64,000 bases of DNA from Acidimicrobiia bacterium (GTDB lineage: Bacteria > Actinomycetota > Acidimicrobiia > Spongiisociales > ZC4RG35): positions 1 through 64,000 of the forward strand of contig JANQRA010000012.1 in NCBI GenBank assembly GCA_028284765.1, in the 5' to 3' direction. The notes under the pieces are model-generated. The model was not told the origin of the DNA, made no database searches, and was given only the letters and a program-made list of their open reading frames with translations. A program made the position numbers and the translations under genes. Below, one piece after another: positions 10,690 to 49,445 of this stretch; within the stretch, counting starts at the first letter, position 1; every line of letters begins with the position of its first letter.

Positions 10690-11497
10690 ACCGACGCCGC
10701 GCCAAATAGATCACCAACGCCAGCCCACCGGCCACCAAAGCGACCTGGAACGGCACAGACCATTTGGAATCGGCGAGATTCGACAAGGTGTCTGCGATCG
10801 GCGCTCTTCCGCCAGTTGGGTCGAGCACCCAGGAGCCGACCCGGAGCAACACCGCGAAGGTCAAACCAGTGACGGCCACCTTCGTCAACAGCTCCCGGAA
10901 CGCACCGTATTTGTCTTCCGACACAGCCACGATCGAGTAGCCGAGCACACCGATACTGAGCGAGGCAATCAACACCGCAATCCCCAATCGCGAAGCAGCA
11001 GGTGAGGAGGCGCCGACGATGGCGCTCGTCCCCGGCTCGCGGATGACCAGAGGGTCGAGATCGTTGACAATCTCAGTCACCTCAGAGATCGAAACCGGAA
11101 CTCCGACCTGCGATAGCCCTGATGCGACGTCCGGGATCAGGGGTGTCAACAGACCTTGCATGTCGATTGAGGAGCCACCCGGGTGCGACGAGGCGGCAGC
11201 TTCGACGACTTCGTTGACGAATCGTTCGAGACTTCCACCCACGGCCGTGGACTCAACCAGATACGTAACTGTCGGCTCGACGAGGTCAATGTCCACTCCA
11301 GCTGCAAGAAACTCAGCGGTGGCCCAGTCGGCAATCAGGTCGAACGTTTGAGTCGACTCAGCCAGCGGCGCAACCGACTCAGCAAGCTCATCTGTGTCCA
11401 CCACAATTGCGCGGCCCCATAGGGCCAGAAACAAGACAGTGACACTCAAGCCAAACAACCACGTCGCCGTGGTCTTCCACACCTTCGCCAGTTTCAT
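10616..11497 (-). CDS. Membrane protein with large extracytoplasmic loop, family not recognised
   Basis: A 293-residue protein with an N-terminal TM helix (about residues 12-32), a hydrophilic 130-residue region rich in Ser, Val and acidic residues, then three further TM helices and a Pro-rich tail. The layout resembles actinobacterial hypothetical integral membrane proteins with an external helical domain. Its ATG overlaps the stop of mrp by 4 bases, so it is co-transcribed with the Fe-S carrier gene. The 3' 74 bases are antisense to the DUF2752 gene. I cannot assign a function. Confidence 0.78.
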   Translation of the reverse strand: MKLAKVWKTTATWLFGLSVTVLFLALWGRAIVVDTDELAESVAPLAESTQTFDLIADWATAEFLAAGVDIDLVEPTVTYLVESTAVGGSLERFVNEVVEAAASSHPGGSSIDMQGLLTPLIPDVASGLSQVGVPVSISEVTEIVNDLDPLVIREPGTSAIVGASSPAASRLGIAVLIASLSIGVLGYSIVAVSEDKYGAFRELLTKVAVTGLTFAVLLRVGSWVLDPTGGRAPIADTLSNLADSKWSVPFQVALVAGGLALVIYLARRRFKPGEVSPAPNVSPRPQEEQPLSL

Positions 11498-12576
11498 TTG
11501 ATGACGAGTGCAGGGTTACTTCGAATACGCGGCCGCTTCTCGATCACAGCGTCAGCCAGCTGGTCAAAGGCACGGGCAGCCTCCGACTCAGGTGCGGCCA
11601 GCGAAACCGGAACACCGGAGTCTGCGCCGCGACCCATTTCCGGAAGCAACGGAACCTTGGCCATGAGGTCGACTTCGAGCTCGTCTGCGAGGGCCTGGCC
11701 GCCACCCGAGCCGAACAGCTCATAGCGCTTGCCATCGTCGCCAGTGAACCAAGACATGTTCTCCACCACGCCGATCACCTGTTGATCAACTTCTGCTGCC
11801 ATCAACGCTGCCCGTCTCGCCACCCGCTGTGCCGTGGGCTGTGGGGTGGTAGCCACCACGACCTGAGCGCGAGGAAGGAACTGAGTCATCGAAATCGCGA
11901 TGTCACCGGTGCCCGGTGGCATGTCGACGATGAGGAAGTCGAGGTTGTCCCAGAACACGTCCTTTAGGAACTGCTCGATCGCCTTGTGCAACATTGGCCC
12001 TCGCCAGATGACTGCCTTGTCCTCACCGACGAAGTAGTCCATTGACATCACCTTCACGCCATGAGAGACAGGGGGGACGATCATCTCGCCCACCATCACG
12101 GGCGGATTCACGATGCCCATCATCGCCGGGATAGAGAAACCCCAGATGTCTCCATCCACGATTCCGACCTTGTTGCCCTTCTTGGAGAGTGCAACCGCAA
12201 GGTTGGAAGAGATTGAAGACTTGCCGACCCCGCCCTTTCCGGAGGAGACAGCAATCGTTCTAGTTGCGGATCCAGGTTCACCAATCGGTGGACCGGACTT
12301 CTCCTTGAGATCTGTCATCCAAGTGGTGACCGCCTCGTCGTCCATGACCTCGACATCGACGTCGACGCTGTTGGTGTGACCATCGAGGGCCTCGCGAAGA
12401 CGCTCGTCCAAACCGTCTGGCGGGCCGCCGGTGGGAAGGAGAAGTTCGACTTTGACTTTGCCGGTGAGCTTCTTCGAGACCTCCTTGACCAGTCCGAGCT
12501 CACCCAGGGTGCGGCCGACGAAGAGTGGAGATTCGATGGACGCGACAGCGTCGAACAGTTGGTCTTGGTCGGGCAT
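11494..12576 (-). CDS. mrp: Mrp/ApbC-type iron-sulfur carrier ATPase
   Basis: Mrp proteins are P-loop ATPases that hold and pass on Fe-S clusters. This 360-residue protein has an N-terminal MIP18/DUF59-like domain (about residues 1-90), then the deviant Walker A SSGKGGVGKSS, VDGDIWGFSIPAMMG, WRGPMLHKAIEQFL and the LIVDMPPGTGD switch motif. The CxxC found before the C-terminus in many Mrps is missing: the segment reads VVENMSWFTGDDGKRYELFG with no Cys, as in several actinobacterial homologues as I recall. It is divergent from a SufR-like gene across a palindrome, and a GGAA ribosome site precedes the ATG. The next gene overlaps by 4 bases. Confidence 0.93.
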   Translation of the reverse strand: MPDQDQLFDAVASIESPLFVGRTLGELGLVKEVSKKLTGKVKVELLLPTGGPPDGLDERLREALDGHTNSVDVDVEVMDDEAVTTWMTDLKEKSGPPIGEPGSATRTIAVSSGKGGVGKSSISSNLAVALSKKGNKVGIVDGDIWGFSIPAMMGIVNPPVMVGEMIVPPVSHGVKVMSMDYFVGEDKAVIWRGPMLHKAIEQFLKDVFWDNLDFLIVDMPPGTGDIAISMTQFLPRAQVVVATTPQPTAQRVARRAALMAAEVDQQVIGVVENMSWFTGDDGKRYELFGSGGGQALADELEVDLMAKVPLLPEMGRGADSGVPVSLAAPESEAARAFDQLADAVIEKRPRIRSNPALVIK

Positions 12577-12604: not shown

Positions 12605-12629
12605 CTTCAAAAACTATAGTTTTGGAAAG
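12605..12629. promoter_or_regulatory. Palindromic operator between mrp and SufR-like gene
   Basis: A perfect 14-bp palindrome, AAAACTATAGTTTT (12610-12623), lies in the 65-base divergent region. It extends with one mismatch per arm to CTTC-a-(core)-g-GAAAG. The core contains TATAGT on both strands, a near-consensus -10 for each direction, so one protein bound here could block both mrp and the regulator gene. The likely ligand is the SufR-like protein encoded alongside. Confidence 0.65.
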
Positions 12630-12641
12630 GGACAACCCCAC

Positions 12642-13346
12642 ATGGACAACAAGACTCTCGATCGCCGCATCTCAGACCTGACGACAGCGTTGGGAGACCC
12701 GACGCGGCGCGCTATCTACATTGCAATTCGAGAGTCCGGGGAACCGATGACCACCTCAAAGGCTGCCCAACTCTTTGAGATCCACCCAAACGTGGCCCGG
12801 CACCATCTGGACTTGCTCACGGAAGGCGGATTTCTCCAAGAGACTCAGACGCGGGTCAGCGGATCCAGTGCCGGACGTCCCGCCAAGGCCTACGAGGCTA
12901 CGAGCATGGAAGTGGACCTCCACTTCGCCCCTCGTCGTTTCGAGATGCTCACCGAGATGCTGTTCCAGGTTCTCGAGGAAGTCTCGCCCCCCGATGTGGC
13001 CGAGGTGGCGGAGAAGGTCGGCCGCACTTATGGAGAACGTCTCGCTGCCGAGATCGGCACCCCCACCGATCCCGGCTACGACGAAGCGGTCCAGGCGGTC
13101 GCAAGCGCGATGACCGGCTTGGGTTTCTTGGTTGACCCCGATGTCGAGGGCCAACGGCTGCTGACGTCGCATTGTCCGTTCGGGGAGACTGCAACTAGCC
13201 ACCCTGAAGTGATCTGCTCTCTGGACCGCGGGATCGTGAGAGGTTTGTTCGGAGCACTGAGTTTCAACTGCGACCCGGTCGTCATTCCCCATCAGCAGCT
13301 CGACGACGACTGCGTCACCCAAGTACCTGTCACGATCAGCAACTGA
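12642..13346 (+). CDS. SufR-like ArsR/DeoR-type iron-sulfur regulator
   Basis: A 234-residue regulator: an N-terminal winged helix (about residues 10-85; ALGDPTRRAIYIAI, then HPNVARHHLDLLTEGGFLQE) and a C-terminal sensor domain. The end of the protein has four cysteines in CPFGE, VICSLD, NCDPVV and DDCVTQ, spaced about 13, 17 and 13 residues apart. This resembles the cluster-binding domain of SufR-type repressors of suf operons. Divergent placement from the Fe-S carrier mrp supports a role in sensing Fe-S status. Start is ATG 12642, with GGAAAGGG upstream; the track start at 12525 shadows mrp. No suf operon is adjacent; a lone sufB lies 35 kb away. Confidence 0.85.
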   Translation: MDNKTLDRRISDLTTALGDPTRRAIYIAIRESGEPMTTSKAAQLFEIHPNVARHHLDLLTEGGFLQETQTRVSGSSAGRPAKAYEATSMEVDLHFAPRRFEMLTEMLFQVLEEVSPPDVAEVAEKVGRTYGERLAAEIGTPTDPGYDEAVQAVASAMTGLGFLVDPDVEGQRLLTSHCPFGETATSHPEVICSLDRGIVRGLFGALSFNCDPVVIPHQQLDDDCVTQVPVTISN

Positions 13347-13358
13347 CCACTAGTCAGT

Positions 13359-13408
13359 GAACCCTGGGTTCCTGACTTCGCTGGGCGGGGGTACGAACCC
13401 AGGGTTCG
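13359..13408. repeat. REP-like inverted repeat element, copy 1
   Basis: Two self-palindromes, GAACCCTGGGTTC and CGAACCCAGGGTTCG, are reverse complements of one another and can pair as a 13-bp stem around a 22-base loop. A second copy lies at 37267-37317. No T-run follows, so it may act as a bidirectional terminator or as a dispersed repeat. It sits between the regulator gene and acnA. Confidence 0.7.
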
Positions 13409-42940: not shown

Positions 42941-42960
42941 GAGACATTCACGTGGCCCAA

Positions 42961-43102
42961 GGGTCAGGCGACCTGGCTTAGAACGGCTCAGATCGGGCGA
43001 TGATTTCATCGAACGACTTGAGACGCCATCACAGTTGCGGGACAGCGCCGGACTCTCACCGGCTTCGCTGTTCCCCCGGGCACCTGCCTTTTGTGGCAGG
43101 CC
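42961..43102 (-). ncRNA. Cobalamin riboswitch aptamer
   Basis: The minus strand reads GGGGGAACAGCGAAGCCGGT, then GAGAGTCCGGCGCTGTCCCGCAACTGTGA, matching the conserved core of B12 riboswitches (GGGAA...CCGGTGAGAGTCCGG...CCCGCAACTGT). It is followed by AGCCAGGTCGCCTGACC, the usual 3' closing motif. The 5' boundary is approximate, set from a TAGCCT hexamer at 43109-43114 that could be its -10. It lies 90 bases upstream of the btuF ATG and just downstream of the HtrA gene. Confidence 0.9.
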
Positions 43103-47349: not shown

Positions 47350-47619
47350 ATGTTCTTGGACGCTTCGACACTCGAGGCGATGGCCATCGTCGGTGGGATG
47401 GGAGCCATCGGTGGGCTCATCGGTGGGTTCGTGGCTTCTGCCGACAGCCTGTTTGGGTCAGTCCTCGTAGGGATCATCGGCGGCGTTGCCCTCTCCGCCA
47501 TCCTCGCAGGAGCCGGTGCTCCGGCCCTCTACGGCGTGGGAGAACAGAACTTCTCCATGGTGTGGGGTGGCATCGGCGGTCTACTTCTCGGCTACGTCGT
47601 CGGCCGCTCCAACGTCTGA
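47350..47619 (+). CDS. Small Gly-rich membrane protein
   Basis: An 89-residue protein made almost wholly of three hydrophobic, Gly-rich helices (MAIVGGMGAIGGLIGGFVAS; LVGIIGGVALSAILAGAG; GGIGGLLLGYVVGR). It resembles GlsB/YeaQ-type stress membrane proteins in size and composition, but I would not name it on that basis. It is leaderless. The stop codon is the first part of the 85-bp tandem repeat array that follows. Confidence 0.75.
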   Translation: MFLDASTLEAMAIVGGMGAIGGLIGGFVASADSLFGSVLVGIIGGVALSAILAGAGAPALYGVGEQNFSMVWGGIGGLLLGYVVGRSNV

Positions 47620-47932
47620 GCGTCTCCTATCGGAGACGTTGGAGTTTCTTCGAAACTCCCGCTCCGCGGAACGGACTGAGTTGGCAAGGCAAACTCAAAC
47701 CTGAGCGTCTCCTATCGGAGACGTTGGAGTTTCTTCGAGACTCCAACACCTCGCAACGGCCTGAGTTTACAAAGCAAGCGCACACCTGAACTTCGCGTAT
47801 CGGCGACGCGGTAGCAGCCGGCCGACCGGCGTCTGAGCGTCTCCTATCGGAGACGTTGGAGTTTCTTCGAAACTCCCGCTCCGCGGAACGGACTGAGTTG
47901 GCAAGGCAAACTCAAACCTGAGCGAAGCTCAG
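47616..47932. repeat. 85-bp tandem repeat array with hairpins
   Basis: Units start CTGAGCGTCTCC at 47616, 47701 and 47833, with a truncated, diverged unit at 47786-47832 and a final stub CTGAGC-GAA-GCTCAG at 47918-47932. Units 1 and 4 are identical over 85 bases; unit 2 matches them over its first 43 or so and then drifts. Each full unit encodes two stems, CGTCTCC-TATC-GGAGACG and GGAGTTTC-TTC-GAAACTCC (GGAGTTTC-TTC-GAGACTCC, with one mismatch, in unit 2). It fills the gap between convergent genes (small membrane protein and sufB) and may act as a bidirectional terminator. It is not a CRISPR. Confidence 0.85.
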
Positions 47933-47939
47933 GCATCAA

Positions 47940-49349
47940 TCAGCCGATGGCGCCGGCCGCAGCCATGTTGAGCTCGATGAGACGGTTCATCTCGACCGCA
48001 TACTCCATGGGGAGCTCCTTGATGATCGGCTCGATGAAACCGGCCACGATCATCGACGTTGCCTGGTCTTCGGTCAGACCGCGGGACATCAGATAGAAGA
48101 GCTGATCCTCGCCGACCTTCGACACGGTGGCCTCGTGACCCATCTCGGCGTCGTTCTCCTCGACCTCCATGTACGGGTAGGTGTCAGACCGGCTGTCCTC
48201 ATCGAGAATCAAAGCGTCGCATCGGACGAAGCTCTTGGCGTTCTCGGCGCCGGGCTCAACACGGACAAGACCGCGGTATCCGGACCGACCTCCGCCCTTG
48301 GAGATCGACTTGGACACAATCGTCGAAGTGGTGTCGGGAGCTGCGTGAACCATCTTGGCCCCTGCGTCCTGATGCTGACCCTCTCCAGCAAAAGCGATTG
48401 AGAGCACCTCGCCATGGGCGCCCGGCTCCATGAGCCAAACCGCCGGATACTTCATCGTCAGTCTCGAACCGAGGTTGCCATCAACCCACTCCATCGTGGC
48501 GTTCCGATATGCAGCGGCACGCTTGGTGACGAGGTTGAAGACGTTGTTCGACCAGTTCTGGATCGTGGTGTATCGGCAGCGACCACCCTCTTTGACGACG
48601 ATCTCCACCACCGCCGAATGCAGCGAATCGGTGGTGTAGGTCGGCGCCGAGCAACCCTCGACGTAGTGAACGTAGGCACCTTCGTCAACGATGATCAGAG
48701 TCCGCTCGAACTGACCCATGTTCTCCGAGTTGATGCGGAAGTAGGCCTGCAGCGGCTGTTCGACGTGGACGCCAGGCGGCACGTAGATGAACGACCCACC
48801 GGACCACACAGCCGAGTTCAGAGCAGCAAACTTGTTGTCGTTGGGCGGGATGACGGTGCCGAAGTACTCCTGGACGATCTCCGGGTACTCACGGACCGCA
48901 GTGTCCATGTCGGTGAACAAGACACCTTGAGCCTCGAGGTCTTCCCGGTTTCGGTGATAGACCACCTCGGACTCATATTGAGCGGTGACGCCAGCCAGGT
49001 ACTTGCGCTCTGCCTCGGGAATCCCCAACTTCTCGTACGTCTCCTTGATGGACTCCGGAACCATGTCCCAGTCCTTCTGCTGTTCACCCTCAGGCTTGAC
49101 GTAGTAGTAGATGTCGTCGAAGTCGATGGTGTCCAGCGCACCGCCGCCTCCCCATTGGGGGATCGGCTTGCTGAGGAACCTCTTATAGGCCTTGAGCCTG
49201 AAGTCGAGCATCCATTGCGGCTCCCGCTTCATCGCGGACATGTCACGGATGACGTCCTCGTCCAGACCCTTCCGTGGCTCGAAGGCCAGCTCGACTTCGT
49301 CTTTCCAGCCGAGTTGGTAACCACCTAGATCAATATCAACTGTTGCCAT
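47940..49349 (-). CDS. sufB: Fe-S cluster assembly scaffold subunit SufB
   Basis: SufB, with SufC and SufD, is the scaffold on which Fe-S clusters are built. The 469-residue protein is full length and carries the family run [61 protein letters not shown] and the C-terminal [18 protein letters not shown]. Here it stands alone: no sufC, sufD, sufS or sufU is adjacent on either side. The leader of about 60 bases has a GAGGTG ribosome site, a strong promoter and a palindrome over the -10. Other suf genes must be elsewhere. Confidence 0.96.
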
Positions 49350-49391: not shown

Positions 49392-49419
49392 AATTTCCAC
49401 TATGCCGATAGTGGCAATT
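49392..49419. promoter_or_regulatory. Palindromic operator overlapping sufB -10
   Basis: AATT-t-CCACTAT-gccg-ATAGTGG-c-AATT is a near-perfect inverted repeat with 11 pairing bases per arm and one mismatch. It overlaps the sufB -10 (49417-49422) and the expected transcription start, the classical position for a repressor. Confidence 0.7.
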
Positions 49420-49445
49420 GTACCCGCCCGTCCGGGACACGTAAA
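49417..49445 (-). promoter_or_regulatory. sufB promoter
   Basis: On the minus strand TTTACG (49445..49440), a 17-base spacer and TACAAT (49422..49417) give the best -35/-10 pair in the window. The start would fall near 49410, inside the palindrome. Confidence 0.65.

Follow-up and report, generated by a model that had tools for sequence, protein, structure and literature searches.

The palindrome that overlaps the sufB promoter of this member of the Acidimicrobiia is almost certainly an operator of an iron and Fe-S regulon. It is not specific to sufB, but is one copy of a conserved, genome-wide motif, ACTA-N6-TAGT with AAAT flanks, associated with iron and Fe-S genes. The best explanation as a whole, considered probable, is that this operator is bound by a dimer of a SufR-like regulator, the gene for which lies 37 kb from the sufB operator in the same window (the whole stretch of 64,000 nucleotides that was analyzed). 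The Acidimicrobiia are mostly known from uncultured genomes, and a regulon of SufR-like type that spans the class, has a new half-site and takes in iron-import genes provides a testable model of their iron and Fe-S control.

The sufB operator and promoter

The operator occupies positions 49392-49419 and reads AATTGCCACTATCGGCATAGTGGAAATT on the minus strand, upstream of sufB (47940-49349, minus strand), which encodes the Fe-S cluster assembly scaffold (TIGR01980, 731 bits, E 3.4e-220). It is a 12-4-12 inverted repeat of 28 bp, with arms at 49392-49403 and 49408-49419 that are complementary at 11 of 12 positions, with a single mismatch, across a 4-nt spacer. The ACTA-N6-TAGT core spans 49399-49412 and the conserved AAAT ends 43 nt upstream of the sufB start codon. 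The sufB promoter, TTTACG-17-TACAAT on the minus strand, presents its -10 (TACAAT, 49422-49417) over the upstream edge of the operator, preceded by a candidate -35 (TTTACG, 49445-49440). The near-perfect 28-bp palindrome over the sufB -10 described in the initial annotation is thus borne out, with arms matching at all but one position and abutting TACAAT. The same annotation called this the best promoter of the window, which holds in part: its -10 is the closest to consensus among the four matches of this type in the 64 kb, but its score of 9/12 is only the joint best of the four.

The bare palindrome is not significant, since order-1 Markov sequences with the composition of the window are expected to contain 0.2 such repeats per 64 kb with a spacer of 4, or 1.6 with spacers of 3-8. 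Palindromes of equal quality are therefore not rare by chance, which lends some weight to a fortuitous repeat, and part of the palindrome would be transcribed at sufB, which does the same for a hairpin formed by the sufB leader RNA. The palindrome is judged to be real from its conservation and recurrence, not from palindrome statistics.

SufB was detected in 33 of the 34 genomes of the same family, and the DNA upstream of the main sufB copy was readable in 31 genomes, 27 directly and four (G008, G009, G015 and G022) upstream of intein-bearing copies. Of these 31, 26 carry the operator core (ACTA-N6-TAGT and AAAT), comprising 22 aligned promoters and those of the four intein-bearing copies; the five genomes that lack it all belong to a single genus, g3, and outside g3 the operator is found in 26 of 26. 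Poor conservation in close relatives had been named at the outset as the observation that would count against the palindrome, and this degree of retention instead supports the original reading of a repressor-type operator on the sufB -10 and start region. Within the 22 anchored promoters, the half-site letters CTA and TAG and the AAAT that trails them show almost no variation, unlike the spacer, with fixed core columns of ~1.3-2 bits and distal flanks mostly below 0.6 bits. The -10 of the relatives is mostly TACAAT or TATAAT, and no -35 consensus was seen across these 22 promoters, such that the TTTACG hexamer present here shows no conservation. The sufB genes of G008, G022, G009 and G015 are contained in long open frames (L389 1469-4036, L390 1557-4127, L391 1669-3942 and L235 2124-4391, respectively) in which the SufB matches are split at residue 127 by a middle insert that looks as expected of an intein.

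The iron and Fe-S regulon

Motif sites are found at six loci of the present genome, every one upstream of Fe-S or iron genes. In addition to the sufB site, and with neighboring genes assigned by Pfam, they lie between the genes for a Fe(III)-type ABC transporter solute-binding protein and ferritin (L070 3986-4011), between a second mrp gene (mrp2) and an A-type carrier (L071 3949-3974), between a transporter gene for a FecB-type binding protein and an EfeO-like imelysin (L072 4008-4033), before sufD-Rieske-sufC (L073 3022) and before sufC-sufS (L073 14720). Two further weak matches, at C5:431822 and C10:115412, carry two mismatches and were seen on one strand. The same set of motif-preceded genes is found again in relatives, and the 28 family genomes outside g3 hold 197 strand matches to the motif against 21 for the reversed control, compared to 7 and 2, respectively, in the six genomes of g3. 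The sufB, sufD and sufC-sufS units are also preceded by the motif in distant families of the Acidimicrobiia, where the counts depend on the strict pattern used; genomes of families f18 and f48 with counts of zero do carry variant operators.

Two promoter geometries are represented among these sites. The operator of sufB adjoins the -10 with its upstream edge; at sufD, sufC-sufS and the mrp2/A-type carrier locus, a -10 of the TACGAT/TATCAT type lies beyond its downstream edge. In either arrangement, a bound dimer would occupy the site needed by the polymerase. Seated on ACTA-N6-TAGT and its AAAT flanks, the SufR-like dimer would cover the -10 and start site of sufB and exclude RNA polymerase, and at sufD, sufC-sufS and mrp2/A-type carrier it would block the polymerase from a position immediately before the -10. 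If the regulator behaves as SufR does, its cluster-loaded form would act as a repressor, and iron starvation or oxidation would strip the cluster and lead to the joint derepression of Fe-S assembly and iron import, the latter of which is probably also governed by this regulator. The second geometry bears directly on the possibility of an RNA hairpin, since a motif upstream of the predicted -10 at sufD, sufC-sufS and mrp2 would not be transcribed, which makes a role in RNA unlikely. Fixed half-site letters around a variable spacer speak against hairpin and chance alike, and an explanation of either kind is hardly credible beside that of a protein-bound operator.

The SufR-like regulator

The proposed binder of the operator is an ArsR/DeoR-type regulator (12642-13346, plus strand) with an N-terminal winged helix of the kind found in SufR proteins (PF12840, HTH_20; E 2.7e-12). 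It is divergently transcribed from mrp (11494-12576, minus strand; PF10609, E 5.8e-87), which encodes a NUBPL/ApbC-type Fe-S carrier, and this synteny is kept class-wide, with the two genes in divergent orientation at nearly all loci read. The lead to this protein came from weak Rrf2-HTH matches adjoining motif sites, as those proteins are its orthologues. The orthologues adjoining the motif are mostly 58-68% identical to it within the family, and 37-68% overall, in a gene order of mrp and the regulator transcribed apart, with acnA following the regulator. An orthologue was found by search in 33 of the 34 family genomes; two of these 33, G018 and G019, gave only weaker, paralogue-like matches. 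With the regulator as query, a SufR-named NCBIfam model gave no match up to E 10, matches being to general ArsR/SmtB models only, and a search of PDB sequences returned only weak winged-helix matches. An AlphaFold model of the regulator built from four sequences had a mean pLDDT of 44 and was discarded. A perfect 13-nt inverted repeat, GAACCCTGGGTTC/GAACCCAGGGTTC, is present at 13359-13407 of the window, between the regulator gene and acnA.

That the SufR-like protein is the binder of the operator is very probable, a judgment made from sequence comparisons and founded on the presence of the motif in the orthologues' own promoters and on the changed recognition helix in the motif-less genus g3. 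The operator or a variant of it occurs in the gap between mrp and the regulator in about a third of the family (about 11 of 30 genomes). In the present genome and its nearest kin, the operator in the regulator's own promoter has degenerated, and none is recognizable there. Across the class, the operator core lies within ~100 bp of the regulator start in 36 of 78 loci, a fraction that is not an unbiased rate because 11 of the 78 were picked for a site already seen, and these occurrences extend to 12 families outside the home family. In many of these loci, the right half-site runs into a -10 (TAGGTAGAATA).

These autoregulatory sites are important in weighing a Fur-family iron repressor as the owner of the operator, in which case the site beside mrp and the regulator gene would reflect only that mrp is an Fe-S gene. 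The content of the regulon, with iron import, ferritin and suf genes, is typical of Fur-like control, and Fur-family proteins were found by profile search in 33 of the 34 family genomes. Their presence is non-discriminating, however, as Fur homologues are also found in the motif-less g3, and G015 carries the motif with no Fur match, albeit in an assembly that is only 78% complete. The known Fur box is AT-rich, and the operator motif is unlike it. In distant families, the site falls within the promoter of the SufR-like gene itself, overlapping its -10. On the whole, ownership by Fur is unlikely.

An Rrf2-type regulator had been put forward in the initial annotation as an alternative. IscR/RirA-type Rrf2 regulators adjust Fe-S assembly and iron import to the Fe-S status of the cell; this functional coupling is like that proposed here, but the protein family is a different one and the motif needs no Rrf2 protein. 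In other organisms, Fe-S assembly is under the control of IscR-type proteins (PMC8593673), and the present genome encodes one clear Rrf2 protein. The gene for it, the only clear one of its kind here, is located within a nos-like cluster that lacks the motif, and no Rrf2 match was obtained in four motif-bearing genomes (G011, G014, G024 and G025). Two genomes, G015 and G018, have a second sufB copy in the neighborhood of an Rrf2 gene (G015:C56 and G018:C82), and the copy in G015 (L029) lacks the palindrome. An Rrf2/IscR-type owner of the operator is thus very improbable. The additional sufB copy of such relatives suggests that they have a distinct Fe-S system under Rrf2 control.

Iron is usually regulated in Actinomycetota by DtxR-type proteins, which recommends a DtxR/IdeR-type repressor as a further candidate for the operator. 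No DtxR match (PF02742) was found in the present genome (G000, 98% complete), and DtxR is also absent from 19 others of the 34 family genomes, many of them with the motif; the chance that such a repressor owns the operator appears vanishingly small. With slightly better than even chances, a SufR-type repressor of the Acidimicrobiia with its own operator, ACTA-N6-TAGT, may have become a broad iron regulator of scattered suf units, mrp, the A-type carrier, iron importers and possibly ferritin, replacing DtxR/IdeR where this is absent, and g3 would since have rewired both helix and operators.

The gap between mrp and the regulator also contains a palindrome of its own (12606-12627, assigned to no strand), composed of TTCAAAAACTA and TAGTTTTGGAA with a core ACTATAGT at 12613-12620. 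This core reads TATAGT on both strands and is kept in nearly all of the 30 family genomes read, including those of g3, with a few variants (e.g. G009, G010, G027 and G028); in about a third of relatives, the ACTA-N6-TAGT operator stands beside it. Its conservation even in the operator-less g3, together with the symmetric TATAGT, makes it more likely that ACTATAGT is a bidirectional -10 used by both mrp and the regulator than an operator, and this is likewise the more likely reading of the AACTATAGTT region of the gap. Symmetric promoters with divergent transcription are established in bacteria (PMC12825309, PMC10268837). A shared -10 would explain why this palindrome has ACTA letters in common with the sufB operator and yet a different centre, from which a second dimer spacing had earlier been proposed. 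That proposal finds no support, as ACTATAGT reads as a symmetric -10, although the palindrome may still allow a second mode of binding.

Regulator and motif across genomes

The recognition helix of the regulator is IHPNVARHHLDLL, and 21 aligned motif-bearing family proteins have HPNVARHHLD at this position (HANVARHHLD in one). In genus g3, the SufR-like gene is likewise transcribed away from mrp, but the motif is missing and all six proteins bear an altered recognition helix, HRNLARHHLE or HRNLARHHME. This genus represents only one evolutionary event; its paired change of helix and motif nevertheless offers a way to learn how the regulator reads DNA. An operator proper to g3 was not found, the near-matches fetched being either intragenic or not close to Fe-S or iron genes. 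A general co-divergence of helix and motif across the class was considered and rejected, as it holds for g3 but fails for families f27, f40 (genus g149) and f44, where the canonical helix occurs without strict motif matches. At E<=1e-20, families f7 (12 genomes) and f8 (four genomes) have neither a regulator orthologue nor the motif, and a few genomes (e.g. G227 and G275) have motif sites with no regulator match. Homologues in f71, a family of another class, adjoin sufB across a gap with neither ACTA-N6-TAGT nor CAAC-N6-GTTG, and their location supports the kinship of the regulator with SufR. In the f75 genomes (7-10 Mb), the best matches are not adjacent to sufB.

Comparison with known SufR proteins

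The SufR of Streptomyces avermitilis binds CAAC-N6-GTTG, the first half of which overlaps the -10 (PMC11995493). This protein and its counterpart from Corynebacterium glutamicum (CAAC/GAAC-N6-GTTG) resemble the present regulator in the ArsR/DeoR-type winged helix, the C-terminal Cys region, the control of suf genes (here predicted) and a 4-6-4 operator overlapping the -10 (PMC11995493), as seen here at sufB, sufD and sufC-sufS, in this genome and in other families. The half-site differs, being ACTA/TAGT here and CAAC/GTTG there, as does the genetic organization: the Acidimicrobiia regulator gene is divergent from mrp and outside a suf operon, the suf genes are distributed over several units and the regulon includes iron import. 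The cyanobacterial SufR (sll0088), described as dedicated to suf, binds the same CAAC-N6-GTTG motif and is similar in its predicted nature as an Fe-S sensing repressor, its palindromic 4-6-4 operator and its autoregulation, for which the sites at the regulator gene of many relatives suggest a parallel here (PMC8593673). It differs in its half-site and in its cysteines, C-X12-C-X13-C-X14-C compared to C-x12/13-C-x31/32-C. The overall cysteine pattern is nevertheless similar to that of known SufRs: the present regulator has C-x13-C-x31-C, its three cysteines, candidate ligands of a [4Fe-4S] cluster, being invariant in 27 aligned family sequences, and most homologues of the class have C-x12-C-x32-C, the third spacing being unlike that of described SufRs. 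Rv1460, the SufR of Mycobacterium tuberculosis, needs C203, C216 and C244 (PMC6034842); the first two of these essential cysteines are x12 apart, as in most Acidimicrobiia homologues, whereas the third follows after x27 instead of mostly x31-32, and the Rv1460 gene heads the suf operon. The regulator is predicted to work like SufR on an operator that retains the 4-6-4 spacing but has another half-site, and it is named SufR-like here because its expected working is that of SufR and its operator is not CAAC-N6-GTTG. At the time of one review, SufR was known in Gram-positives from only two Actinobacteria (PMC8593673).

Other features of the window

Three copies of a 95-nt repeat, two identical and one 81% identical, lie at 47613-47924, between sufB and a glycosyltransferase gene, and the repeat contains a hairpin with a T-rich tail. 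A cobalamin riboswitch (42950-43102, minus strand; Rfam RF00174, 43.7 bits) is located upstream of genes for an Fe/B12-type ABC transporter and cobinamide genes.
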